Part shown: positions 10,103-56,262 of the stretch, piece by piece
How the letters are laid out: every line of letters starts with the position of its first letter
Numbering within the stretch: position 1 is the first letter of the stretch
Source: Euryarchaeota archaeon
GTDB taxonomy: Archaea; Thermoplasmatota; SW-10-69-26; JACQPN01
Length of the DNA: 64,000 nucleotides
Reading direction: 5' to 3'
Assembly (NCBI GenBank): GCA_016207515.1
Contig: JACQPN010000001.1
Coordinates: 1-64,000 of the forward strand
The notes under the pieces: generated by a model
Database searches by the model: none
What the model was told of the DNA's origin: nothing
Seen by the model: only the letters and a program-made list of their open reading frames with translations
Position numbers and translations under genes: made by a program

Positions 10103-10896
10103 CCCTTCAGGAGTTTCGTGGCAGCCCGGACGTCGGCGGTCCCACGGCAGATCTCGGAGACTGCCCGGCACATCAGTTCGGGCCGCTTGTGCTGCCAGAC
10201 GTTTCGTCCTATGGAGACGCCGCGCCCGCCGGCTTCGATGGAATCGGCGACCATCTGGAGGACGGCTTCGTCGGAATCCATCTTTGCGCCGCCCGAAAGC
10301 ACGACCGGTTTGGAAGTCCCTCGCACTACCTCCTTGAACGTCTCGACGGAACCAGTGTAAGGCACTTTGAGGATGTCAGCCCCGAGTTCAGCTCCGAGGC
10401 GCGCGACGTGCTTCACAAGCGTGACATCGTGTGGGTTCTTGATCGCAGGGCCCCTCGGGTACATCATTGCAAGTAGCGGCAGGCCGAATTCGCCGCATTC
10501 GCGGCTCACGCGGCCGAGATCTTCAAGCTGCGTGCTTTCCGTGGGCGACCCGACGTTGATGTGAACGGAAATGGCGTCGGCGCCGAGACCGATGGCCTCC
10601 GGGACGGTGCAGACGAGCCGCTTGTCGTTCGGGTCGGGATTCAAGGATGTGGAGGCCGAAAGATGGACGAAGAGACCGGCGGTTCCGAGCGAGCCGGCGA
10701 TCTCGGGGACAAGCCCTTTGTGCGCAATGATTCCGGTCGCTCCGCCGGCGGCGACAATGCGCACGGTCGCTGTCGGGTCCTCGATCCCGCCCATCGGCCC
10801 GGCGGAAACGCCATGGTCCATGGGCACCAGCACAAATGTGCCGGAGGGTTTGTCCATGATTCTGGCGAGCCTTCGCTCTCTGCCAATTATTGACAC
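10099..10896 (-). CDS. 2-amino-3,7-dideoxy-D-threo-hept-6-ulosonate synthase (ADH synthase)
   Basis: Condenses aspartate semialdehyde with 6-deoxy-5-ketofructose 1-phosphate, the first committed archaeal step to dehydroquinate. It is a class I aldolase-like barrel (DhnA/MJ0400 family) with FVLVPMDHGVSAGP, then GLGADAISVHINVGS, LLAMMYPRGP, ADILKVPYTGS carrying the Schiff-base lysine, and VVLSGGAKMDSDEAVL. The 265-residue length is typical. It begins with GTG and opens the nine-gene operon; a TTAAATA element lies about 30 bp upstream. Its substrate is supplied by lysC and asd at the far end of the same operon. Confidence 0.93.
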   Translation of the reverse strand: MSIIGRERRLARIMDKPSGTFVLVPMDHGVSAGPMGGIEDPTATVRIVAAGGATGIIAHKGLVPEIAGSLGTAGLFVHLSASTSLNPDPNDKRLVCTVPEAIGLGADAISVHINVGSPTESTQLEDLGRVSRECGEFGLPLLAMMYPRGPAIKNPHDVTLVKHVARLGAELGADILKVPYTGSVETFKEVVRGTSKPVVLSGGAKMDSDEAVLQMVADSIEAGGRGVSIGRNVWQHKRPELMCRAVSEICRGTADVRAATKLLKG

Positions 10897-38641: not shown

Positions 38642-38925
38642 TCACGTCGACCGTGATCACGGCCTAAGGCGTTTTTCCCGCAAGCGTCGAACGCCGATGG
38701 GCGAATGCCAAATCACCTTCGTTGAAGCGTCAGGTTTATTGCGTTCACATTGTTGGGGTGACGACGCGACGAGGTAGGTCGCGTCCCGTAGCCAAGCCAA
38801 TGTGCGGATATTCGTCCCGTTTCAGTTCGCTGGCTACATAGCAGCAGTCTGGACACGTAGCCAAGCATTGCGAGGGCTCGCTGACGCTCGCCCTCTTATG
38901 GCTTGGCTACGTAGTAGACGGATTT
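38642..38925. other. Intergenic region with hairpins built from tRNA-Arg 5' sequence
   Basis: No gene is seen. The segment GTAGCCAAGC, identical to bases 7-16 of the downstream tRNA-Arg, occurs at 38788-38797 and 38857-38866, the latter within a 16-base copy of the tRNA 5' end (GGACACGTAGCCAAGC, 38851-38866). Each copy is followed by its inverted complement: GCTGGCTAC at 38829-38837 and GCTTGGCTAC at 38901-38910. The result is two consecutive long hairpins, the second with an inner GAGGGC/GCCCTC stem. The spacing of the three direct copies is 69 and 75 bp. Confidence 0.7.
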
Positions 38926-39000
38926 GGACACGTAGCCAAGCCAGGATATGGTACAGGCCTCCTAAGCCTGGGATCGTGGGTTCGAATCCCACCGTGTCCG
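38926..39000 (+). tRNA. tRNA-Arg (anticodon CCT)
   Basis: A complete cloverleaf is visible: acceptor GGACACG/CGTGTCC (perfect), D arm GCCA...TGGT, anticodon stem CAGGC/GCCTG with loop CTCCTAA (anticodon CCT, reading AGG), a five-base variable loop, and T arm GTGGG-TTCGAAT-CCCAC. The discriminator base is G and CCA is not encoded. No intron is seen. Its 5' end is duplicated twice just upstream. Confidence 0.93.
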
Positions 39001-39149
39001 TCAAAGGGGGAAGCGGCATCACACAACGGGTACGTCCGGGTGACTCGTCGCATGCCGCGCAACGTCCCCACTACCTTTACGCGTTGGAGGCAATCGCCGG
39101 GATCCGGTCGCCAGGTTCAAGACCATCGTGCCGCTTGTGACACCTCGAC

Positions 39150-45052: not shown

Positions 45053-46147
45053 CTACACTTCGACGAGGTCGCGGCCGGCCGTCGTCAACATCTTGCACCC
45101 GGTCTTCGTGACGACGACGTCATCCTCGATCCGGACTCCGCCCCATTTCGGGACGTATATCCCCGGTTCGACCGTGAACGCCATCGTCTCCTCGAGCGTC
45201 GTGTCGCTCAGCGCCGCGATGCGACCGCCGTCATGCACGGCCAATCCGATGGAATGCCCCGTCGAGTGGATGAATCGGCCCTTGTACTTCGTCGAGTTGA
45301 TGACCTTCTCCACCGCCATGTGCACGTCCGACGCCTTCGCGCCGTGGTGGATCATCTTGAACCCGACCTCTTGGGCCTCCTGGACTATCTCGTAGACCGT
45401 CCGCATCTCCTTCGTCGCTTTCCCGAAGACGAACGTGCGGGTGATATCCGACGCGTACATTTTGTAGAACGCGCCGAAGTCGCAAAGCACGTAGTCGCCT
45501 TTCTTGAGACGCCGCTCCCCGGGGCTATAATGGGGCTCGGCCGCGTTCTCGCCGAACGCGATTATCGTCTGGAAACTCGGGCCTGACGCGCCGTAACGCT
45601 GCATGCGGTCGTTTATCTCCGCCGAGAGCTCCATCTCCGTCATACCGGGGACGAGCATCTTCGGGATCTCGTCGCCCACCTTGGAGACGAGCTTGCATGC
45701 CTTTCGCAGCCTCTCAAGTTCCACCTCGTCCTTGTAAAGGCGCGCCTTCATCACGGCGTCGGTCACGTCCACGAATTTGCGCCCGGGAAGCGCCTTCTTG
45801 AGGTAGAGGAAATTCTGGTGAGTGAGTTCATGCGCGTTGATGCCGACGGTCTTCGCTCTCCCCACGGATTTCTTCAGATGCTCCGTGCGCTCCTTGCCGG
45901 TCGTGAAAACGAGCACATCCGCCTCGCGACCCTTCCTCGCCGATTGTTCCTCAAGAAGCGATGACAAGACCTGGCACGAGCCGTCGCGGTGAAGGACCGC
46001 GCCACCGCCCTCGAAGAGGCCCCCTTCGACGAGGTCGGTCGCGTAGAAGAAACTCATGTCCATGTGCGGCGCTTCGGCGTTGAAGAGCACGATGGCGTCG
46101 ACGGTCTTCGGGGCGCGCTTGAAGATGGACTTGATGCGGGACTTCAT
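45053..46147 (-). CDS. Xaa-Pro aminopeptidase/dipeptidase (M24B)
   Basis: A pita-bread metallopeptidase that releases residues next to proline. The C-terminal catalytic domain has the metal ligands in CDFGAFYKMYASDITRTF (two aspartates), the histidine in HSTGHSIGLAVHD, EPGIYV and RIEDDVVV (two glutamates). The N-terminal domain is the creatinase-like fold. I start at the ATG of MKSRIKSIFK, giving 364 residues; a CTTTATTTGAC TATA element lies about 28 bp upstream, so the message may be leaderless. Confidence 0.93.
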   Translation of the reverse strand: MKSRIKSIFKRAPKTVDAIVLFNAEAPHMDMSFFYATDLVEGGLFEGGGAVLHRDGSCQVLSSLLEEQSARKGREADVLVFTTGKERTEHLKKSVGRAKTVGINAHELTHQNFLYLKKALPGRKFVDVTDAVMKARLYKDEVELERLRKACKLVSKVGDEIPKMLVPGMTEMELSAEINDRMQRYGASGPSFQTIIAFGENAAEPHYSPGERRLKKGDYVLCDFGAFYKMYASDITRTFVFGKATKEMRTVYEIVQEAQEVGFKMIHHGAKASDVHMAVEKVINSTKYKGRFIHSTGHSIGLAVHDGGRIAALSDTTLEETMAFTVEPGIYVPKWGGVRIEDDVVVTKTGCKMLTTAGRDLVEV

Positions 46148-46231
46148 GGTATCCAGACGACAACGTTTGGCCGTCAAATAAAGGGATGCTCCATCTTGAC
46201 CCCCGCCGGTCGTGAGCGCTTCGTGAACGTG

Positions 46232-46318
46232 CGGCCGGGGCGGGATTTGAACCCGCAGGACCTGTCACGATCCCTGGATCTTCAATCCAGCGCGTTGACC
46301 TGGTTCCGCCACCCGGCC
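46232..46318 (-). tRNA. Class II tRNA with anticodon GAA (nominally Phe; scaffold Leu/Ser-like)
   Basis: The cloverleaf is complete: acceptor GGCCGGG/CCCGGCC, a three-bp D stem GCG/CGC with loop GAACCAGGTCAA, anticodon stem CTGGA/TCCAG with loop TTGAAGA (anticodon GAA), and T arm GCGGG-TTCAAAT-CCCGC. The variable region is 17 bases and folds as a five-bp stem GGATC/GGTCC with a six-base loop. That makes it class II, as for leucine and serine tRNAs, whereas tRNA-Phe is class I. The discriminator is G and CCA is not encoded. Folding is secure; amino-acid identity is not. Confidence 0.8.
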
Positions 46319-46384
46319 GGGAGATTGTGGCCAACCTCCGGGACAACATTCGACCTGGGAAACTCTTAAGTTCTTTCCCGATCT

Positions 46385-46463
46385 AATGGTACGTAGACCT
46401 GTCACGGTCCCGGACTTTCGGTCCGGAAAACGGGGCTCGCGTTCGCGGGCCCCGGGTTTTTTC
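46385..46463 (+). ncRNA. Candidate structured RNA with terminator-like hairpin
   Basis: On the plus strand three hairpins follow each other: GACC-TGTCAC-GGTC (46397-46410), CCGGAC-TTTCG-GTCCGG (46411-46427), and GGGGCTCGCG-TT-CGCGGGCCCC (46433-46454). The last is followed by GGG and six T (46458-46463), like an intrinsic terminator. The first two are a diverged copy of the antisense of the neighbouring tRNA's variable and anticodon arms. A promoter is not clear (weak CTTAAG near 46364-46369). It could instead be a decayed tRNA fragment on the minus strand. Confidence 0.4.
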
Positions 46464-46860
46464 GTCAGGCGACGGTCTTCCAGGAGGCGGCATTCAGCGC
46501 GGAGGCCGAGTCGCTAACATTCTTTAGTTCTTCGGCCCAAGGTCAACGCATCAGGTTCGGCGTATCCCAGAACGCGATAGTCGTTGGGGCCGTCACGCCC
46601 TTATGGGCGACATGGCCTGCGGTTGCGGCTACGCCCCAAACGGCGGTGAGTCGAAAAATCACTACTCTCCGCCTCTTCGCGGCTGTTCCATGTGGGAATA
46701 GAAGCGGCGGTCCAGTTCATGAAGAATTCGCCGGAGCTCGTGCGTAATGTAGCCCCCGACGAATAGGACCGCGCCTCGCGCCCCGGTGGCCGCCGCCTAG
46801 CGTGTCACGGCAGGGAAGGAGCGTGGGTAACGGGGTCGCCGCTTCCTCGGTTCGCCGCCA
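46464..46860. other. Intergenic region, nothing recognised
   Basis: About 400 bp between the structured segment and the end of the giant surface-protein gene. I find no credible coding frame, tRNA, or recognisable conserved RNA in either strand. SRP RNA and RNase P RNA signatures were looked for and not seen. Confidence 0.5.
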
Positions 46861-49800
46861 CTATCGGTCCTCTTCCTTCTTTCTGCGCCTACGCCATGCG
46901 ACGATCACCAGAAGCGCGGTCAGTAGCCCCAACGCGATGGCGCCGTAGACGGTCCATGGTAGGCCGCCGCGTTCGGTGGGCGCTTCGCCCGTGACATTGC
47001 CCCCAAGAGCGGATGATCCCGCCACGTCTTGACCCGCGCCCGCACTCTTTTCGGCGCCGCCCGACAAGCCCGCCCTTGATATTGTCCCTGGTGCGACCAC
47101 GGTCCAAGTGGCGGGTAAAGTCAAGTTACCAACCGCAACGGGCACGGTCTGGGCGCCCATGGTCGGGTTGGCTTGGAACGTGACGGAGGTCTCGGCGAGC
47201 TTCACTTCGTTTCCGAATTCGTCGAATCCTGTGAGATTCACTGTGACGGTCGTGTTTGCTTCCACCGTTTCCGGGGCGTCCACTACGAGCCGAGCGAGCG
47301 ACGACGGCAGGATCTGGACTCTCACCGTGGCCCCCACCGCGCCTGACGCTTGCGCTAGCCGCGCCGTGATGGTGTAGTTTCCGGCTTTCGTGCCGGGCTG
47401 CAGGATGGCTCCGGTGAAGTTCCCGGCGCCGTCCGAGACCCCCCACTGGATGGCGCTCGCGGCCAAAGGCACCTCGTTTCCAAAGGCGTCCTTCGCAACG
47501 GTCGCGTAGGGGATTGGCGTGGCGTTGCCGGCGGTCAACAGGAGGGCGCCGTTGAGGATTACAAGTGACGCCACCGGGCCAGGGCTCACCGTCACGGTCG
47601 CGGTCGTCGACACTCCGCCGGCTGATGCCGTCACCGCCTTGGTCCCGGGAGACGTCCAGACGAAGCCCGCGTCCAGGGCTTGGAGATCGGGCGTTGAGCC
47701 CGGCGCATCCCATGTGACGGCGGCGATGGTGACGACGTTGCCGTAGGCGTCGGACGCACCACGCACCGTGCAGGAGGCGGTCACGCCCGCCGTCGCGTTT
47801 GCCGGACATGAGAGCTTGAAATCGGAGAGCGGGCCCGAAACGACCCGAACCTGCGCGGAAGCAGTCTTGCCTGCCCCCGTCGCCGTGATGAGGTAAGTAC
47901 CCACGGTCGCGGGGGGCGTGAAGAGGGTGACGCCTCCGTTCGCCTGCGAAAAGCGTCCGGAAGGCGAACTCCACGCGAGCGAGGGATCGCCGATCTTGTT
48001 ATGATGGATGTCGTGGGTCGCCACGATTCCGCAAACGGTCGCGTTCCCCGCCTCCACGGTGTCCACACATCCGATATGAAGGTGCTCGATTCCTAGGGGA
48101 TTGACGGTGACGTTGGTCACGTTCCTTACTCCGCCCGTCGTGGTCACCGTGATCGCGTACGCGCCCGCGGCCCCCCGTGGGTCGAAGGTTGCGGCGGTCG
48201 AGTTCGACGGCACGACGGTGCCGCCAGACGTGCTCCACGTGAGAGCGTCCGTTCGGTCATTCCCGAATGCGTCTCGCGGCACGGCGACGAAGCTCCCCGT
48301 CGAGCCGGCGTTGATGGCGCCGGGCGCAGAGGTGAACGCGATCTTGTATAGCGGACCAGGTGCCATCACGAACACCGCCGTAGAGTTCTTCGACAGGTCC
48401 GACGCGAGCGTGGCGGTGATCGTGTACGTCCCGGCTGCTTGCGTCGGGTTGAACGTGTTCCTCGTGAATGAACCGCCCGCGGCGGAGTCGAGCGTCCAGA
48501 GGATGTCCTTCGCCATGTCCAATTGGATCGGGTTGCCGAATGCGTCGGTGCTCGTGGCCTCGTAGTCGAGGCTCGTGACGTTGTCCGCGGATTCGGTCGT
48601 CCTCGCGTTCACGATGAAGAACGAATTCGGCGCTGCCGGCCGGATCTGTAGGCTCGCGGACGCGTTTCGCGACGAGTTCGACGACAGGTGGACCCTGACC
48701 GTGTACAGGCCAGCGGCATTGCTCGGATTCAGGACGTTTGATGAGAAGCTGCCCGCACGGATGGAGTCGAGCGACCACGTCACGTCGGTGGTGGAGTCCA
48801 TGGGCACGGGATTGAGCCGCGAGTCCGTCGCGGTCACGTTGTAGGTGACCTGACTCGTCTGACCGGCCCGTTGGGTCACGGGACCGTTTGTGATCTTGAG
48901 ATAGAACGGGTCCGACGGGCGTATCGTCATGTTCGTCGATGCCGTGACGCTTGTGTTTGCCAGGAGCGTGGCGGTGACCGTGTAGTTACCCGAAACGGGG
49001 CCTGCCACGAGCAGGTTGTTCGAGAAGAAGCCACCTGCCCGGGGCGACACGGCCCAGGAGACCTCGGTGGCGGAGTCGATTTCGACGCGGTTCCCGAACC
49101 TGTCTGTCGCGTTCACGGCCAGGCTCACGTTCGTGGAGCCTGCGAGTGCCGACGCGTTGCCGCCCGCCACCGTGAGGGTCACGATTGACGCCGGCCGGAT
49201 CTTGAACCCGACGCTGTTGTTCTTGGACGCGTCCGATTTGAGCGTCGCCGTCACGTTGTATCGTCCGGATGTGTTCGTCGGCGAGAGTACGTTGAGACCC
49301 ATGGTGCCACCGCTCGAGGGGCTGATACTCCAGGTCACGTCGTTGGCGGCGTCCAGGGCGACGGCGTTGCCGAAGGAGTCCGTGGCGGAAACCCCGTAGG
49401 TAATGGACGAGGTGTTCCCCGCCGTCTGGATACGGTTCCCGGTCGTCACCACGATCTTGTCGGGTCCGGCAGGCCCGATGTCGAAACGGACGGTGGCGCT
49501 GATGTTCGAATCCGAGTCTAGGGAGGCGCGTATCGTGTAGTTACCGGCGGTGTTGGTGGGCGCGAAATCGTTCGCCGCGAACGAACCGCCAGTGGACGCG
49601 TTGACGGTCCATGTCACATTCTTGGCAGAGCTCAACGGGATGTTGTTGCCGAATGCATCCGTGACGTTCGCCATGTAGGTGACTATTGACGTGTTTCCGG
49701 CCGTCTGCGTGATGTTGCCGTTCGTGATGCTGATCCTCAGAGGAGTGGCAGCGACGATTTGGAGGAACGCCTCCGCCGGTTCCGGGACGGAGCCGTTAGA

Positions 49801-52800
49801 TGCCGAGGTCTTGTAAAGGCCCGCAATAGTTCCCGGGTTAAGGACGTTGGTACTGAAGGAACCGCCGGCGCTGTTGTTGATCGACCAGGTGACGTCCGTG
49901 GCCGCGTTGAGTGTCACGTTGTTTCCGAGCTTGTCCTTGCCCGTGGCGTTGTAGGTGAGGCTCGTGGTCGCCCCGGCGGCGGTCACGTTGAGCGGCGTCT
50001 GGATGTAGATCACAGCCAGCGCCCCGGGCGTCAGCGTGAAATCCGCGTTCGCCTTGATGCTCGTGTTGAGCGTGTACGTGGCCGTCACCGTGTATCTTCC
50101 CGTGATGGTGGATGGCGCCAGGACGTTGGCGTTGAAAGAACCGCCGACGCTTCCCGTGGTGCCGTTGACGGCGATCTCCCACGTGGCGTTCGCGGTTGGA
50201 ACACTCGCGTTGTTACCGAACGCATCCCTGCCCGTGACCTTGTAGGTGATTGTACGGCCATCGGTGGCTTGTTGGGAGAGGTTGCCGTTGTCGATGACGA
50301 TCGCCACGATCGCGCCGGGTTGTATCGGGAACGTCCGGGAGCCGTTCGTCGACGTGTTGGAATTGAGCGTGGCCGTCACCATGTAGAAGCCTGAGGCGGT
50401 TCCAGCGGCGAGAACGTTTCCGGAGAACGTCCCGCCTGCGGTGGGCGAGATCGACCATGAGACGTCCGTGGTGGCGTTCAAGGTGACTGCGTTGCCGAAG
50501 GCATCTGAGGCGTTGGCGTTCCAGGTGATGTTTCCTGACGCACCGGCCACATGGAAGCCCGCTGATGGCACTGGGATGATGGAGTTGACCGGTCCGGTGT
50601 TCATTGTGAAGTTCACTGTGTCGCGGGCGGTCGTGAGGTTTCTGAGCGCGGCCGTCACGATGTAGCGCCCGGCCTTGGTGGACGGAGCCAGTACGTTTTG
50701 CGAAAAGTTCCCTGCGTCGCTGGCGGACACTGCCCAATCCACGTCTGTGGCCGAGTCGATGGTCACGTTGTTTCCGAACGCGTCCTTCGCCACCGCCGAA
50801 TAGGTGACGTTCGAGGTCGCATTGGCGGATTGTGTGGTAGCGGAAGTCGTTATCGTGAGTGACGCGGCGGAGCCTGGAAGTATCGTCAACGTGACGTTCG
50901 CGGTCCTTCCGGTCGTCGCGTTCGTGGCCGTTATCGTGTAGTTGCCGGCCACATTTGAGGGGGAGAAACTCGCTCCGATGAAGGTGCCGCCGGTCGATGG
51001 GCTGACGGTCCAAGTGAGGTCGTTCGTCGCGTTTATCTCAACGTCGTTTCCGAGTTGATCCGTTCCCGAGGCGTTGTAGAAGACGGCAGACGTGGAGCCC
51101 GCCGTCTGGGTCGTCGTCGAAGGCGTCGCCGTAAGGTTGTAGAGCGGTCCTCGAGAGACCGCGACCGTGGCGGTCCTCGCGTCGGAAAGGCCCGCCCTGT
51201 CCGTGACGGAGAGCGTCACCGTGTACGTTCCGTTTCTCGTGAATTGGTGGGTCGGGACCGCCGACGTGCTAGAGTTGCCGTCGCCGAAGTCCCACGACCT
51301 GCCGCTTACCGGTCCGCCGAAGGACGAGGAGATGTCGGTGAACGTGAATTGCGTGGACGTGTCGCCGGTCCTGTTCGTCGGGGCGATGCTGAACAGCGCG
51401 AAGGGCGGGGAGCCGATCGTCCTGTCGATGGCGAGCGAGTGCGTCGTCCCCATCGCGACCGCGGTCACGTTGAGCAGGCCTGTGACGACAGTGTGTGACG
51501 ACCGGCTGGTCGTCGACGTCGGGACTGCGAGTTGCCCGTTGGAGTTGGAACCCGATGCGTAGGCGTTGCCGTCGCCCGCAAGGACAAGCGAATGGCGTAT
51601 TTCCCAAATGCCGCCGCCTAGGAGTGTCGCGTTCGAAAGCGCGGTGAGTGCGACCGGGCTCGTCCTTTGCGTGGTGCTCCCGTCCCCGAGTCGGCCGTCA
51701 TCGTTTCTGCCCCAAGCATAGATCGTGCCATTTGCGGCCAGGGCGTACGAAGAGTAGGCCCCGCCAGCCACTTGGACGATCTGTGAGATGCCTGCTACCT
51801 TCGCCGGAGTCGAGCGGTCCGTCGTCGTGCCGTCGCCGAGCTGACCGTAGTCGTTTGCGCCCCACGAATAGACCGTCCCGTTCGGCATGAGCGCCAGCGA
51901 GTGGTATCGGCCCGCCGAAAGCTGTACTGCGCCCGAGAACGTCGAAAGCCTCGTAGGGGAAGTGCTGTCCGTGGTGGTGCCGTTTCCGAACTGCCCGCGC
52001 GAGTTCCCGCCCCACGCCCAGATGTCACCGTTCGAATCGACGGCCAGTGAATGGCTGTCGCCGACGGCGATGCGGACGGCGTTCGAGAGCCCCGTCGCCT
52101 GCGTGGCGTATGCGCGTCCGGACGTGGTTCCGTCTCCAAGCCGGCCGTCAGCGTTGTAGCCCCAACCGAAGACCGTTCCGTCGGATTTCAACGCCTGCGT
52201 GTGGCCGCCCCCGACTGCGATCTGCACGACCCCGGAAAGGTAGGTCGTGGCATCGGTGCGCACTTCCACGGGTGTCGCCTGGTTGGTGTTCGTGTTCCCG
52301 TCCCCGACGCGCCCGTCGCTACCTTGCCCGCCCCATCCCCAAACGGTCCCGTTGGAAAGGAGCGCATGAGAAGTGAAGTCCTGCCCCCCGACTTCGACGG
52401 CGTTCGCCAGGCCCGTGGCCGTGACCGGGGAAGTGACGGTGCCGGCGATGCTTCCGTCGCCGAGACGGCCGTTGCCTGCGTTGCCCCATGTCCGTACGTT
52501 GTCGCCGACGGCTCGCACCGTGATGCAGCCATAGCAGAGGCCATCCCCCGCGGCGTTACCCGCCGTGACGGTCCTCGGGCCAGAGCGCGCGTTCTGGTCG
52601 ACGCTGACGGTGATCGTGAGTTGGGTGGAGGAGCTCACGGTGACCGCCGTGACGCTCACGTTCCCGCCCGAGACGTTCACGGTCGTTCCCGAGGTAAAAT
52701 TCGCGCCCTTCACCGTCAAAGTCGTTCCCGTCGTTCCCGTGTTGAGGAAAGGCGGATAGATGAGGGACACGGTGGGCGGCGCCGTCAACGCGAAGGTGCC

Positions 52801-55800
52801 GCTCGTGACGTTCGTCCCGGTCGCGTTTGGAAGCGTCGCGTTGGCTATGAACGTGTACGAGTTTGATGCGTCTCCCGTGATCGTGAGGCCCGAAAACGTC
52901 GCGACGCCGCGTACGGCGGACGCGGTGGCCGTTCCGGAGAGTGTCGCCGTCTTTCCTGCGGGGACGCCAAGCGCTACCGTGATGATCCCGGTGAACGTGT
53001 CGGCGACGTTGCCGTAGGCGTCCTTCGCTTTCACCACTACGTCTGAAATGGTCACACCGGTCTTTTCGGAGGTCGGGGACCTCGTGAAGCTCAAGGACGA
53101 GATGACCCCGAGCGTCGTGTCGATGGTGAGGTTCGCCGATGAGTTCCTGGTGTTGCCCGCGTTGTCCGTGAGATTCGCGGTGATGTTGTGGAGACCAGCG
53201 CCCGTGATGTCGGCGCTCGCGCAGTTGATCGTCGTCCCGTTGTCCTTGCAGACGAGGCTTAAGACACCCGAGGTGGCGTCCGTCGCCGAGATCACCGAGG
53301 TGAAGTTCGCCGATCGGCAGGTGGTGACGAGCGGTTGGTCGAGACAGGTCAGATTGATGGACGGCAAGGTCGTGGTACGATCGACTTTTACCCTGATGGT
53401 CCGGGCGGTCTCGTTGTTTCCCACTTCGTCCGTCGCGTAGTAAGTCACGTTGTGGTCGCCGTCTGACGACAGGGTGGCATTCGCTCCCGATTGGACCGCG
53501 CCGCCGTCCACCTGAAAATGGGACACGATGGTGCAGTTCGACGCGACGCTGAAAGTCAGGTTGACGGCCGACGTGTTCCATCCGTTGGAGCCGGCCGTGC
53601 CGGTGGCGTTCGCGCTAGTCACGGGAGGGCCCGTGCAGGCAGGCGCCATTGTGATCTTCGTGATGAAAACGTCCCCTCCACTGTAGTAATAGTACGTCGA
53701 GCTCGCGTCCTTTACCAACGTCTGTTGGAAGGCGTTTGACGTGACCGGAAAGTCTTCCGACGACGTGGACCCTAGCACGTAAATGTTGCCGCTGGAGTCG
53801 ACGGAGAGACCAGTGGCGTAGTCAGACTGGTTTCCCCCGAGGAACGTCGAGAAGCTCAAACCGGTCCCGGTCGCGTTCATGACGGTGACGAAACTGTCTT
53901 GGCTCGGCCAGTCAGGAGAATCCGTCGGAGTCCTCCCGCGCGCGCTTTGCAAGGTGCGGGCCGTGGTCGGGAAATTGTCGGATCCAGTTTGACCTGTCAC
54001 GTATGCGGTCCCGGTGGAATCCACGAAGAGACCATTGGCGTATTCCGTCTTGTTCCCCCCTAGGTACGTGGAGTAGATGAGAGAGGTCCCTGTGGAGGAG
54101 ACCTTCGTGACGAAGGCGTCCCCCGTCGGGTAGGATTCGGTCGTGTTCTTTGCGCGGGCGCGTTGGAATGCGTTGGCCGTCACCGGGAAATCGTCGGACG
54201 TGGTCGTGCCCGCGATGTAGATGTTACCGTTGGCGTCCACACTCATCTTTCCGGCGTAGTCGTGTCCCTTACCCCCGAGAAACGTGGAAAACGTGAGAGC
54301 GGTACCGGCGGAATTCAGTTTCGTCACGAAGGCGTCCTGGACCAGACAGCAGGCGTTTTCGCTGCTCGCTTTCGACCTGGTGGTCTGGAATGCGCCGGCG
54401 GTCGTGGGGAAGTTGTCCGACGACGTCGACCCCGATAGGTACGTGTTGCCGACCGAATCCACGAACGCAGCTGACGGATAATCGTAGCCGTCGCCGCCGA
54501 TGAACGTTGAGTAGGTGAGGCTTGTGCCGAGGGAGTTGAACTTGGCCGCGAAGACGTCGGCGCTGTAGTAGGAGTTCGAGTTCCGGGTGAGGGTTCTCTG
54601 GAACGCGTTCGAGGTCACCGGGAAATCGCTCGAGGTGGTGGAACCTTGGACGTACACGTTTCCGCTCGAATCCACGCTCATGGCGTGGGGATACTCGGAG
54701 TCGACTCCACCGAGGAGCGTGGAGAATGTCAGGGCCGTTCCCCCGGGATTCACTTGCGCGACGAAAACGTCCGCAGGCGGATAGTAGGAATTTTCGGTGG
54801 ATGACTTGGCACGCGTTCTTTGGAATGCGTTGGAACTCACGGGGAAATCGTCGGACGACGTGGACCCCGTTATGTAGGCGGCGCCGTTGGAGGCGACCAC
54901 GAGAGCGGATGCGTATTCACCGCCCTTACCGCCAAGGTAAGTCGAATAAGCGAGGTTCGTCCCAGTGGGGTTGATCTTCATCAGGAATGCATCCGATCCC
55001 GGGCAACAGGATGATTCGGAGGCGGGCTTGGAACGCGAACTCTGCAGTGCGTTGGCCGTGACCGGGAAGTCGTCGGATGTCGTGTAGCCTGCCAAGTAGG
55101 CGTTGCCACCCGTATCCACCGTTATCCCGTGCGCGTATTCCTGGTCCGATCCGCCCACGTAGGTGGCGTAGACGATGGATGTCCCAGACGGGTTGAGTTT
55201 GGCCACGAAAACGTCGGTCTTAGGCCACTGCTCGTTCGATGCCTTGTTACGCGTCCGGCGGAGGGCGTTAGGAGTGGTCGGGAAACTGTCGTCGGATGTC
55301 GTGCTGCCCACGACGTAGACGTTGCCAGAGGAATCCACAAAGAGGGAATGCGCGTATTCGAAGCCCTGGCCCCCTAGGTACGTGGCGTATTCGAGCCGAG
55401 GATCGATGACGAGGTCGCGCGCAGCGTCGTAGGGCGCGACCGAAAACCCTATGGTGCCATCCCACGACTTCTCGAACCGTCCGGCCACGTCTTGGTGCTC
55501 TCCCATTGCGCCCGTTTGGTAGAGCGATGGAGGGGCGTGGCGCAGGATGTCGCCGTCAGTCCCATGGAGCAGGAGATCTCCGGTGGCGGCCAGTTCCACC
55601 GTGGCTCCGGTGAATGCCATCTTGATGAGCGATGGGTCGGCGCCCGGGTGCACCATGAAATCGTACTCTAGCGCCGTTCCGCCAGGCGGATAGAAGATCA
55701 GGTCGATCCCCGGATACAGGTCGCCGTAGCTGACACTTGAAAAGTGGCGAGCGCCTGAGACCCATTCCGATTCGTCGCTGCCGCGGAAATAGCTGCTGAC

Positions 55801-56262
55801 GCCTTCCACGGGGCCGACGCCCGTGGGCGTGGTGTGGGGTCTTGAGCCCGGAAATTCCATGCGCATGGCGCTTCGGCCAGAGACCCACGTTACCGCGTCG
55901 GTCTCAAAGGCCAACATCGAGTCGCTTGAGCGTGCTGCATAGAGAACGTTGGCGTCGAATTGGCCGCGGTTTTCCTCGATGTGGATGGGGATCGGGGGCG
56001 CCGTCGGGGCCGTTACCTTTGGTGCCGGTCGACCGGACGCTCCGTCCAAAGCGGCGGTTCCAGTGATTGAAAGGAGGGGCTCGCCGGTCGCGGTAGGTGG
56101 CACGGTCGACGGCAAGGTCCACGAAGCGGACTCGTCGGTCTGCGGCGTGGGAAGAATGAGGCCTCCTGGCACCACGAGAATGACCACGAGGAACGTCGCG
56201 ATCACCTTGGGGTTCCGGATCGTTCGTAGCCAGTACTTCCATGACCCTGTATCTTGCGCCAT
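46861..56262 (-). CDS. Giant cell-surface protein: SBBP propeller, Ig-like, RCC1, PKD and 15 tandem beta domains
   Basis: One 3133-residue polypeptide. The N-terminal hydrophobic segment (VIATFLVVILVVPGGLIL) is a signal or anchor. Residues about 90-290 are a DUF7948-like domain beginning EENRGQFDANVLYAARS. Eight SBBP repeats of about 73 residues follow to about 870 (TYLGG...VDSSGNVYVVGSTTS), then Ig-like and IPT/TIG modules to about 1240. RCC1 repeats run from about 1245 to 1610 and a PKD domain (SWDFGDGNSS) to about 1700. Fifteen Big/invasin-like domains of 70-97 residues carry the motif DAFGN. The C-terminus is a membrane anchor (IALGLLTALLVIVAW) with a basic tail. Many N-x-S/T sequons are present. 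Likely an adhesin or surface-layer fibre; the partner is unknown. Confidence 0.9.
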   Translation of the reverse strand: MAQDTGSWKYWLRTIRNPKVIATFLVVILVVPGGLILPTPQTDESASWTLPSTVPPTATGEPLLSITGTAALDGASGRPAPKVTAPTAPPIPIHIEENRGQFDANVLYAARSSDSMLAFETDAVTWVSGRSAMRMEFPGSRPHTTPTGVGPVEGVSSYFRGSDESEWVSGARHFSSVSYGDLYPGIDLIFYPPGGTALEYDFMVHPGADPSLIKMAFTGATVELAATGDLLLHGTDGDILRHAPPSLYQTGAMGEHQDVAGRFEKSWDGTIGFSVAPYDAARDLVIDPRLEYATYLGGQGFEYAHSLFVDSSGNVYVVGSTTSDDSFPTTPNALRRTRNKASNEQWPKTDVFVAKLNPSGTSIVYATYVGGSDQEYAHGITVDTGGNAYLAGYTTSDDFPVTANALQSSRSKPASESSCCPGSDAFLMKINPTGTNLAYSTYLGGKGGEYASALVVASNGAAYITGSTSSDDFPVSSNAFQRTRAKSSTENSYYPPADVFVAQVNPGGTALTFSTLLGGVDSEYPHAMSVDSSGNVYVQGSTTSSDFPVTSNAFQRTLTRNSNSYYSADVFAAKFNSLGTSLTYSTFIGGDGYDYPSAAFVDSVGNTYLSGSTSSDNFPTTAGAFQTTRSKASSENACCLVQDAFVTKLNSAGTALTFSTFLGGKGHDYAGKMSVDANGNIYIAGTTTSDDFPVTANAFQRARAKNTTESYPTGDAFVTKVSSTGTSLIYSTYLGGNKTEYANGLFVDSTGTAYVTGQTGSDNFPTTARTLQSARGRTPTDSPDWPSQDSFVTVMNATGTGLSFSTFLGGNQSDYATGLSVDSSGNIYVLGSTSSEDFPVTSNAFQQTLVKDASSTYYYYSGGDVFITKITMAPACTGPPVTSANATGTAGSNGWNTSAVNLTFSVASNCTIVSHFQVDGGAVQSGANATLSSDGDHNVTYYATDEVGNNETARTIRVKVDRTTTLPSINLTCLDQPLVTTCRSANFTSVISATDATSGVLSLVCKDNGTTINCASADITGAGLHNITANLTDNAGNTRNSSANLTIDTTLGVISSLSFTRSPTSEKTGVTISDVVVKAKDAYGNVADTFTGIITVALGVPAGKTATLSGTATASAVRGVATFSGLTITGDASNSYTFIANATLPNATGTNVTSGTFALTAPPTVSLIYPPFLNTGTTGTTLTVKGANFTSGTTVNVSGGNVSVTAVTVSSSTQLTITVSVDQNARSGPRTVTAGNAAGDGLCYGCITVRAVGDNVRTWGNAGNGRLGDGSIAGTVTSPVTATGLANAVEVGGQDFTSHALLSNGTVWGWGGQGSDGRVGDGNTNTNQATPVEVRTDATTYLSGVVQIAVGGGHTQALKSDGTVFGWGYNADGRLGDGTTSGRAYATQATGLSNAVRIAVGDSHSLAVDSNGDIWAWGGNSRGQFGNGTTTDSTSPTRLSTFSGAVQLSAGRYHSLALMPNGTVYSWGANDYGQLGDGTTTDRSTPAKVAGISQIVQVAGGAYSSYALAANGTIYAWGRNDDGRLGDGSTTQRTSPVALTALSNATLLGGGIWEIRHSLVLAGDGNAYASGSNSNGQLAVPTSTTSRSSHTVVTGLLNVTAVAMGTTHSLAIDRTIGSPPFALFSIAPTNRTGDTSTQFTFTDISSSFGGPVSGRSWDFGDGNSSTSAVPTHQFTRNGTYTVTLSVTDRAGLSDARTATVAVSRGPLYNLTATPSTTTQTAGSTSAVFYNASGTDQLGNDVEINATNDLTWTVSPSTGGTFIGASFSPSNVAGNYTITATNATTGRTANVTLTILPGSAASLTITTSATTQSANATSNVTYSAVAKDAFGNNVTIDSATDVDWAVSASDAGNFSQNVLAPSTKAGRYIVTAALRNLTTARDTVNFTMNTGPVNSIIPVPSAGFHVAGASGNITWNANASDAFGNAVTLNATTDVSWSISPTAGGTFSGNVLAAGTASGFYMVTATLNSNTSTNGSRTFPIQPGAIVAIVIDNGNLSQQATDGRTITYKVTGRDAFGNNASVPTANATWEIAVNGTTGSVGGSFNANVLAPSTITGRYTVTATYTLNTSIKANADFTLTPGALAVIYIQTPLNVTAAGATTSLTYNATGKDKLGNNVTLNAATDVTWSINNSAGGSFSTNVLNPGTIAGLYKTSASNGSVPEPAEAFLQIVAATPLRISITNGNITQTAGNTSIVTYMANVTDAFGNNIPLSSAKNVTWTVNASTGGSFAANDFAPTNTAGNYTIRASLDSDSNISATVRFDIGPAGPDKIVVTTGNRIQTAGNTSSITYGVSATDSFGNAVALDAANDVTWSISPSSGGTMGLNVLSPTNTSGRYNVTATLKSDASKNNSVGFKIRPASIVTLTVAGGNASALAGSTNVSLAVNATDRFGNRVEIDSATEVSWAVSPRAGGFFSNNLLVAGPVSGNYTVTATLLANTSVTASTNMTIRPSDPFYLKITNGPVTQRAGQTSQVTYNVTATDSRLNPVPMDSTTDVTWSLDSIRAGSFSSNVLNPSNAAGLYTVRVHLSSNSSRNASASLQIRPAAPNSFFIVNARTTESADNVTSLDYEATSTDAFGNPIQLDMAKDILWTLDSAAGGSFTRNTFNPTQAAGTYTITATLASDLSKNSTAVFVMAPGPLYKIAFTSAPGAINAGSTGSFVAVPRDAFGNDRTDALTWSTSGGTVVPSNSTAATFDPRGAAGAYAITVTTTGGVRNVTNVTVNPLGIEHLHIGCVDTVEAGNATVCGIVATHDIHHNKIGDPSLAWSSPSGRFSQANGGVTLFTPPATVGTYLITATGAGKTASAQVRVVSGPLSDFKLSCPANATAGVTASCTVRGASDAYGNVVTIAAVTWDAPGSTPDLQALDAGFVWTSPGTKAVTASAGGVSTTATVTVSPGPVASLVILNGALLLTAGNATPIPYATVAKDAFGNEVPLAASAIQWGVSDGAGNFTGAILQPGTKAGNYTITARLAQASGAVGATVRVQILPSSLARLVVDAPETVEANTTVTVNLTGFDEFGNEVKLAETSVTFQANPTMGAQTVPVAVGNLTLPATWTVVAPGTISRAGLSGGAEKSAGAGQDVAGSSALGGNVTGEAPTERGGLPWTVYGAIALGLLTALLVIVAWRRRRKKEEDR

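Follow-up and report, generated by a model that had tools for sequence, protein, structure and literature searches.

A seryl-type class II tRNA with a phenylalanine anticodon, and a predicted antisense RNA encoded beside it, in an archaeal genome

What is a tRNA with the long variable arm of the serine and leucine tRNAs doing with a phenylalanine anticodon? The question is raised by a single locus (C1) in the window – the whole stretch of 64,000 nucleotides of archaeal DNA that was analysed – where a preliminary description had recognised a tRNA of the Ser/Leu class bearing the Phe anticodon GAA. The gene is real: ARAGORN calls a tRNA-Phe(gaa) at 46231-46318 on the minus strand, Rfam family RF00005 matches 46232-46318(-) with 58.5 bits (gathering score 29), and both the 17-nt variable region and the discriminator G73 are in place. 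Its features are as follows.

46232..46318, minus strand: class II tRNA gene with GAA anticodon (46281-46283), G73 and a Ser-type body (ARAGORN, Rfam, Ser-versus-Leu profile)
46257..46273, minus strand: long variable arm of the tRNA, with a Ser-type one-nucleotide linker (structure and profile)

The tRNA has a 7-bp acceptor stem, a 3-bp D stem, a 5-bp anticodon stem (loop TTGAAGA) and a 5-bp T stem, its variable region forms an arm of 4-5 bp, and the fold is more stable than 199 of 200 shuffled sequences (z -3.2). The Levitt pair 15-48, which is G-C in all 49 Ser and Leu reference tRNAs, is A-T here and in the tRNA of a related locus, C19 – a compensated double change that speaks against a decaying pseudogene and for selection on the fold. 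The gene's neighbours share its strand (minus). One, whose end is at 46861, encodes a 3133-aa protein; the other, at 45053-46177, encodes an M24 peptidase. The 3133-aa protein (46861-56262, minus strand) has a hydrophobic C-terminal stretch, contains numerous repeats and is probably a surface protein.

The host genome (G000; 2.67 Mb in 25 contigs, 98% complete) contains everything that the preliminary description proposed looking for: a normal class I tRNA-Phe(GAA) with A73, separate from the window gene (G000:C2:222762), as well as full sets of serine tRNAs (four anticodons: GCT, GGA, TGA and CGA) and leucine tRNAs (five: CAA, GAG, TAA, TAG and CAG). The window tRNA gene is therefore surplus. 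Two further solitary class II GAA genes are found in the same genome, at C9:58858 and C19:95260, along with a cluster on C12 (158-169 kb) of extra class II genes with GAA, CCT, CAT and CTA anticodons and an extra, split-looking class II CCA gene at C9:75095 (L052). Bacterial contamination can be dismissed as the source of the window gene, as the genome contains an archaeal RNase P RNA (107.7 bits, above the cut-off) and tRNAs that obey the archaeal G73/A73 rules. One 6.3-kb contig, G000:C13 (L024), carries a clearly bacterial-type tRNA-Leu with an encoded CCA and is itself probably assembly contamination.

Which amino acid, then, would such a tRNA carry? An isotype position profile was derived from 49 tRNAs (20 Ser, 29 Leu) found in the host genome and in related ones; it is correct for 48 of the 49 in leave-one-out and places the window tRNA with serine over leucine by +33.0 bits, or by +27.1 bits if position 73 is left out. 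The reference discriminators are uniform (G73 in 20/20 Ser, A73 in 29/29 Leu), and the combination of a one-nucleotide variable-arm linker with G73 is the same as in 20/20 reference Ser tRNAs; the Leu features – A73 and a two-nucleotide linker – are absent, as is a Ser anticodon, GAA being carried in its place. The preliminary description had suggested a Leu or Ser isoacceptor that changed a single anticodon base. The class assignment survives, with serine favoured by the profile, whereas the simple one-base origin from a current isoacceptor is rejected: the body is far from that of any Ser or Leu tRNA in the genome, and the gene is one of a few surplus genes that resemble each other.

Phenylalanine has to be weighed separately. 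In archaea, its determinants are A73, C13-G22, G20, G34, A35 and A36 (PMC9976931), of which the window tRNA has only the anticodon G34 A35 A36, with G73, U20 and G13/A22 at the other sites and a 17-nt variable arm that is not of class I. It might still be an ordinary, if odd, Phe isoacceptor that PheRS charges through GAA, with no mistranslation at all: the three anticodon bases rank among the major Phe determinants of archaea, and PheRS mischarges a yeast tRNA-Tyr into which GAA has been introduced (PMC9976931), so PheRS might charge the window tRNA too. We consider this decidedly improbable, as A73, G20 and C13-G22 are all present in the genome's own class I tRNA-Phe, and as sister modules (introduced below) bear Leu anticodons, CAG being combined with a body that is clearly Ser-like. 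The Ser profile, the one-nucleotide linker, G73, the limitation of Phe determinants to the anticodon and the presence of SerRS (one copy above the cut-off) together make serine the likely charge.

The preliminary description had taken the meaning of the tRNA without its neighbour, overlooking an adjacent divergent antisense unit that shifts what the tRNA is likely to mean. About 77-107 nt upstream of the gene, the anticodon and variable arms of this very tRNA occur again as a partial copy, which, read on the opposite strand, forms part of the following arrangement.

46357..46379, no strand assigned: near-palindromic promoter-like element GGGAAACTCTTAAGTTCTTTCCC, TATA-like both ways (motif matches; same element at C9 and C19)
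46392..46464, plus strand: predicted divergent small RNA (sRNA) of about 70 nt with three hairpins (fold z, promoter-motif spacing)
46396..46427, plus strand: segment antisense to tRNA nt 28-61, covering the anticodon and variable arms (duplex energy, direct repeat)
46431..46462, plus strand: GC-rich hairpin followed by TTTTTT, a terminator-like end of the predicted sRNA (terminator scan)

A promoter motif trained on the regions upstream of 44 ordinary tRNAs matches the near-palindromic element in both directions, starting 57 nt ahead of the tRNA and 36 nt ahead of the antisense segment – roughly the spacing at which archaeal transcription is expected to start. The terminator-like site is the sole one in 46180-46860 (shuffle mean 0.8), and the 73-nt predicted sRNA folds into three hairpins with a z of -3.4, none of its shuffles being as stable. 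These features point, with about even chances in our estimate, to a seryl-type class II tRNA with GAA that shares a palindromic promoter with a small antisense RNA transcribed in the opposite direction.

The arrangement recurs. Eleven other genomes were surveyed for extra class II tRNAs with covariance models and ARAGORN, several of the relatives being incomplete and the host genome being the sole representative of its family. Apart from G364, which has a GAA gene with A73, comparable genes appeared only in G001, of the same order, which has two (anticodons CAG and GAG, both with G73, the GAG one with C33; loci G001a and G001b), and in G356, of the same phylum, which has one with GAA. An antisense segment lies upstream of the tRNA at six loci: C1, C9 and C19 of the host genome, G001a, G001b and G356. 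The promoter motif precedes the antisense start by 36, 34, 32 and 34 nt at C1, C9, C19 and G356, and the upstream copy adjoins a GC-rich hairpin at both G001 loci and at G356. An automatic scan gave a terminator-like site on the sRNA strand at C1 and C9 and none at C19, G356 and G001a. A common neighbouring protein gene was not seen across C1, C9, C19 and G356: C1 is flanked by the giant protein and the M24 peptidase, C9 by a DUF3179-like protein and an AdoMet synthetase, C19 by an MFS-like transporter and a toxin-antitoxin-like pair, and G356 by a Kae1-like protein (all names but that of the M24 peptidase read from sequence).

Class II GAA tRNAs are not widespread: in a scan of 390 genomes of the phylum, limited to the TGAAGA loop, the additional genuine cases came down to G356 and G364. 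The G364 gene (G364:C3:12100-12184; L231, L236), from another family of the phylum, is a class II GAA tRNA with A73; neither it nor the unusual class II tRNAs clustered on C12 have an antisense partner upstream. Hits of the pattern scan in named genomes were mostly chance matches or intron-bearing class I tRNAs, an exception being a Ser-like class II GAA tRNA in a Bacteroidetes MAG (L121), which is without an upstream copy. A scan of viral sequences for class II GAA tRNAs found none.

How specific is the complementarity? Each sRNA was paired in silico with 12 tRNAs, using the antisense part alone with the terminator left out, and the cognate duplex proved the strongest at five of the six loci. 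At C1, it reaches -52.1 kcal/mol (z -6.1) against -34.4 for the runner-up; the corresponding cognate and next-best values are -61.5 and -49.3 at C9, -69.2 and -55.2 at C19, -67.2 and -53.9 at G001a, and -75.6 and -59.6 at G356. At G001b, the cognate duplex (-36.5 kcal/mol) is neither significant nor set apart among the 12 tRNAs. Among all 720 ways of assigning the six sRNAs to the six tRNAs, the true one has the lowest total energy, beating the other 719. As the arms differ between loci, segment and tRNA must have changed together, whether by selection for pairing or by repeated local copying. At the level of sequence, the locus has one trait of an RNA–RNA toxin–antitoxin system, an adjacent predicted antisense RNA complementary to the would-be effector tRNA. 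Co-folding of the predicted sRNA and the tRNA brings a net gain of just -9.9 kcal/mol, because each folds well alone, and pairing would hence need a loop-to-loop start. At three loci, the base opposite U33 is altered so that the predicted sRNA acquires a UUCG-like loop, as read from the sequences; the direction of the other base changes (12 wobble-keeping versus 7 wobble-breaking transitions) does not significantly favour antisense pairing.

The same copy could also act on the tRNA's strand, mimicking the anticodon and variable arms within the 3' region of the upstream transcript and binding the same protein, as a regulator or a decoy. Both hairpins and the loop GAA are kept in the copy, and the genes upstream of C1, C9 and C19 share the strand of the tRNA. 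Such a role nevertheless seems improbable to us: the variable arm differs in sequence from locus to locus despite there being one SerRS in the cell, the antisense segment is where the predicted start on the opposite strand falls, the sole terminator-like site at C1 and C9 is likewise on the opposite strand, and U33 – replaced in the copies – is a loss that spoils a tRNA mimic but gives the antisense RNA its UUCG-like loop.

Alternatively, the copy may be a functionless by-product of local tRNA duplication, similar to the tRNA through recency or gene conversion, next to a tRNA that may itself be idle. Partial self-copies are indeed common near ordinary tRNAs in this genome and its relatives, and we allow this explanation some weight while holding it unlikely. 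The copies near ordinary tRNAs are almost all near-exact 5' or 3' tRNA ends that build palindromes, whereas those at the module loci are internal, diverged and always of the hairpin region, and at several loci, drawn from three genomes, have a promoter-like sequence on one side and a terminator-like one on the other; the compensated 15-48 change in the tRNA argues in the same direction. An origin from an integration site (att) was also considered and discarded, the copied segment being internal and not a tRNA end. As for the ordinary tRNAs, in many the first 17-34 nt are repeated exactly ahead of the gene, or the 3' end behind it, within palindromic hairpins of about 60-110 nt – for example at 38838-38924 in the window, beside tRNA-Arg(CCT) (38925-39002), and at L255, L282, L308 and L328 in relatives. 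These end copies look like small elements inserted at tRNA ends.

Returning to the antisense reading, a mechanism can be outlined from what is observed: the gene, its fold, its surplus status, its Ser-type features and the cognate-specific complementarity. The sequence supports a tRNA with Ser-type features that is without three archaeal Phe determinants, and the comparison of loci supports an adjacent unit complementary to the anticodon and variable arms of its own tRNA. We infer that this unit would be transcribed as an sRNA of ~70 nt, which would meet the tRNA loop to loop in the cell and then pair with it, hiding both the anticodon and the variable arm read by SerRS. The unmasked tRNA would be serylated and would place Ser at UUC/UUU codons, so that the RNA-only module might be a silenced mistranslator freed under some condition or an addiction-type toxin with its antidote. 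The recurrence of the tRNA/antisense pairing at several loci suggests an RNA-only module that is unreported. The most far-reaching form of the proposal – a new RNA-only module in which a tRNA that mistranslates Phe or Leu codons as Ser is silenced by its own divergent antisense RNA through kissing contacts at both the anticodon arm and the variable arm, and which would act as an addiction unit or a controlled-mistranslation switch – is offered tentatively, as a possibility that falls somewhat short of even chances. If true, cells would hold code-breaking tRNAs together with a dedicated RNA brake, toxin–antitoxin-like systems would gain a type made up of two non-coding RNAs, with a tRNA as the effector, and regulated mistranslation in archaea would become directly testable. 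It would also caution against assuming that every class II tRNA with a Phe annotation carries Phe.

Several known systems resemble parts of this proposal. In CopA/CopT and in type I toxin–antitoxin control, a structured antisense RNA meets its target loop to loop, as proposed for the window sRNA, which differs in being encoded beside its target and not on the target's opposite strand; to our knowledge, the targets in such systems are mRNAs or primers, not tRNA. A tRNA with its own antisense RNA was not found in the open-licence literature, a scope that makes the absence weak evidence. The archaeal and bacterial CreTA systems – in which CreT sequesters a tRNA via a mini-ORF and CreA acts via CRISPR effector proteins (PMC8501985) – are likewise small units with a translation-aimed RNA effector restrained by an RNA encoded alongside, although in the window module the role of effector would fall to the tRNA, with direct pairing as the antidote's mode of action.

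Odd class II tRNAs themselves have precedents. Nematodes have nev-tRNAs (Hamashima et al. 2012; review: PMC4033280), which resemble the window tRNA in joining a class II structure to a class I anticodon and in exceeding the usual tRNA set; of these, nev-tRNA-Gly decodes its codons as Leu (PMC4033280). They differ in their nematode origin, and an antisense partner is not described for them. Bacterial allo-tRNAs (Mukai et al. 2017, reviewed in PMC7609411) share with the window tRNA a class II structure, Ser identity or features and non-Ser anticodons, of which they have many, and some related sequences have suspected ties to mobile elements or toxin–antitoxin systems (PMC7609411). Their acceptor domains are 8/4 or 9/3, that is, 12-bp, whereas the window tRNA is 7/5 (7-bp acceptor, 5-bp T stem), archaeal and accompanied by a divergent antisense partner; the review mentions no such partner.

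The C12 cluster of the host genome forms a distinct setting for unusual class II genes. It lies in a 12-kb, one-strand array of small defence-like genes (L051; G000:C12:157500-169700), including HepT with a nucleotidyltransferase, a PIN toxin with a ribbon-helix-helix partner, AAA-DUF4143, DpnII and others, which looks like a cassette array. Its repeated spacer units contain a Cys-rich ORF that runs on the opposite strand and has nine matches, none of them outside contig C12; these units also hold the class II tRNA-like genes with GAA, CCT, CAT and CTA anticodons. Three class II tRNA-like genes – two in this array (L051 ~1066-1203 and ~10337-10473) and the one at C9:75095 – have a structured insert of ~55 nt between the 5' strand of the acceptor stem and the D stem, which recalls the extra loop at that place in bacterial allo-tRNA-like sequences (PMC7609411), and in another gene of the array (L051 3943-4067) an insert lies in the T arm.
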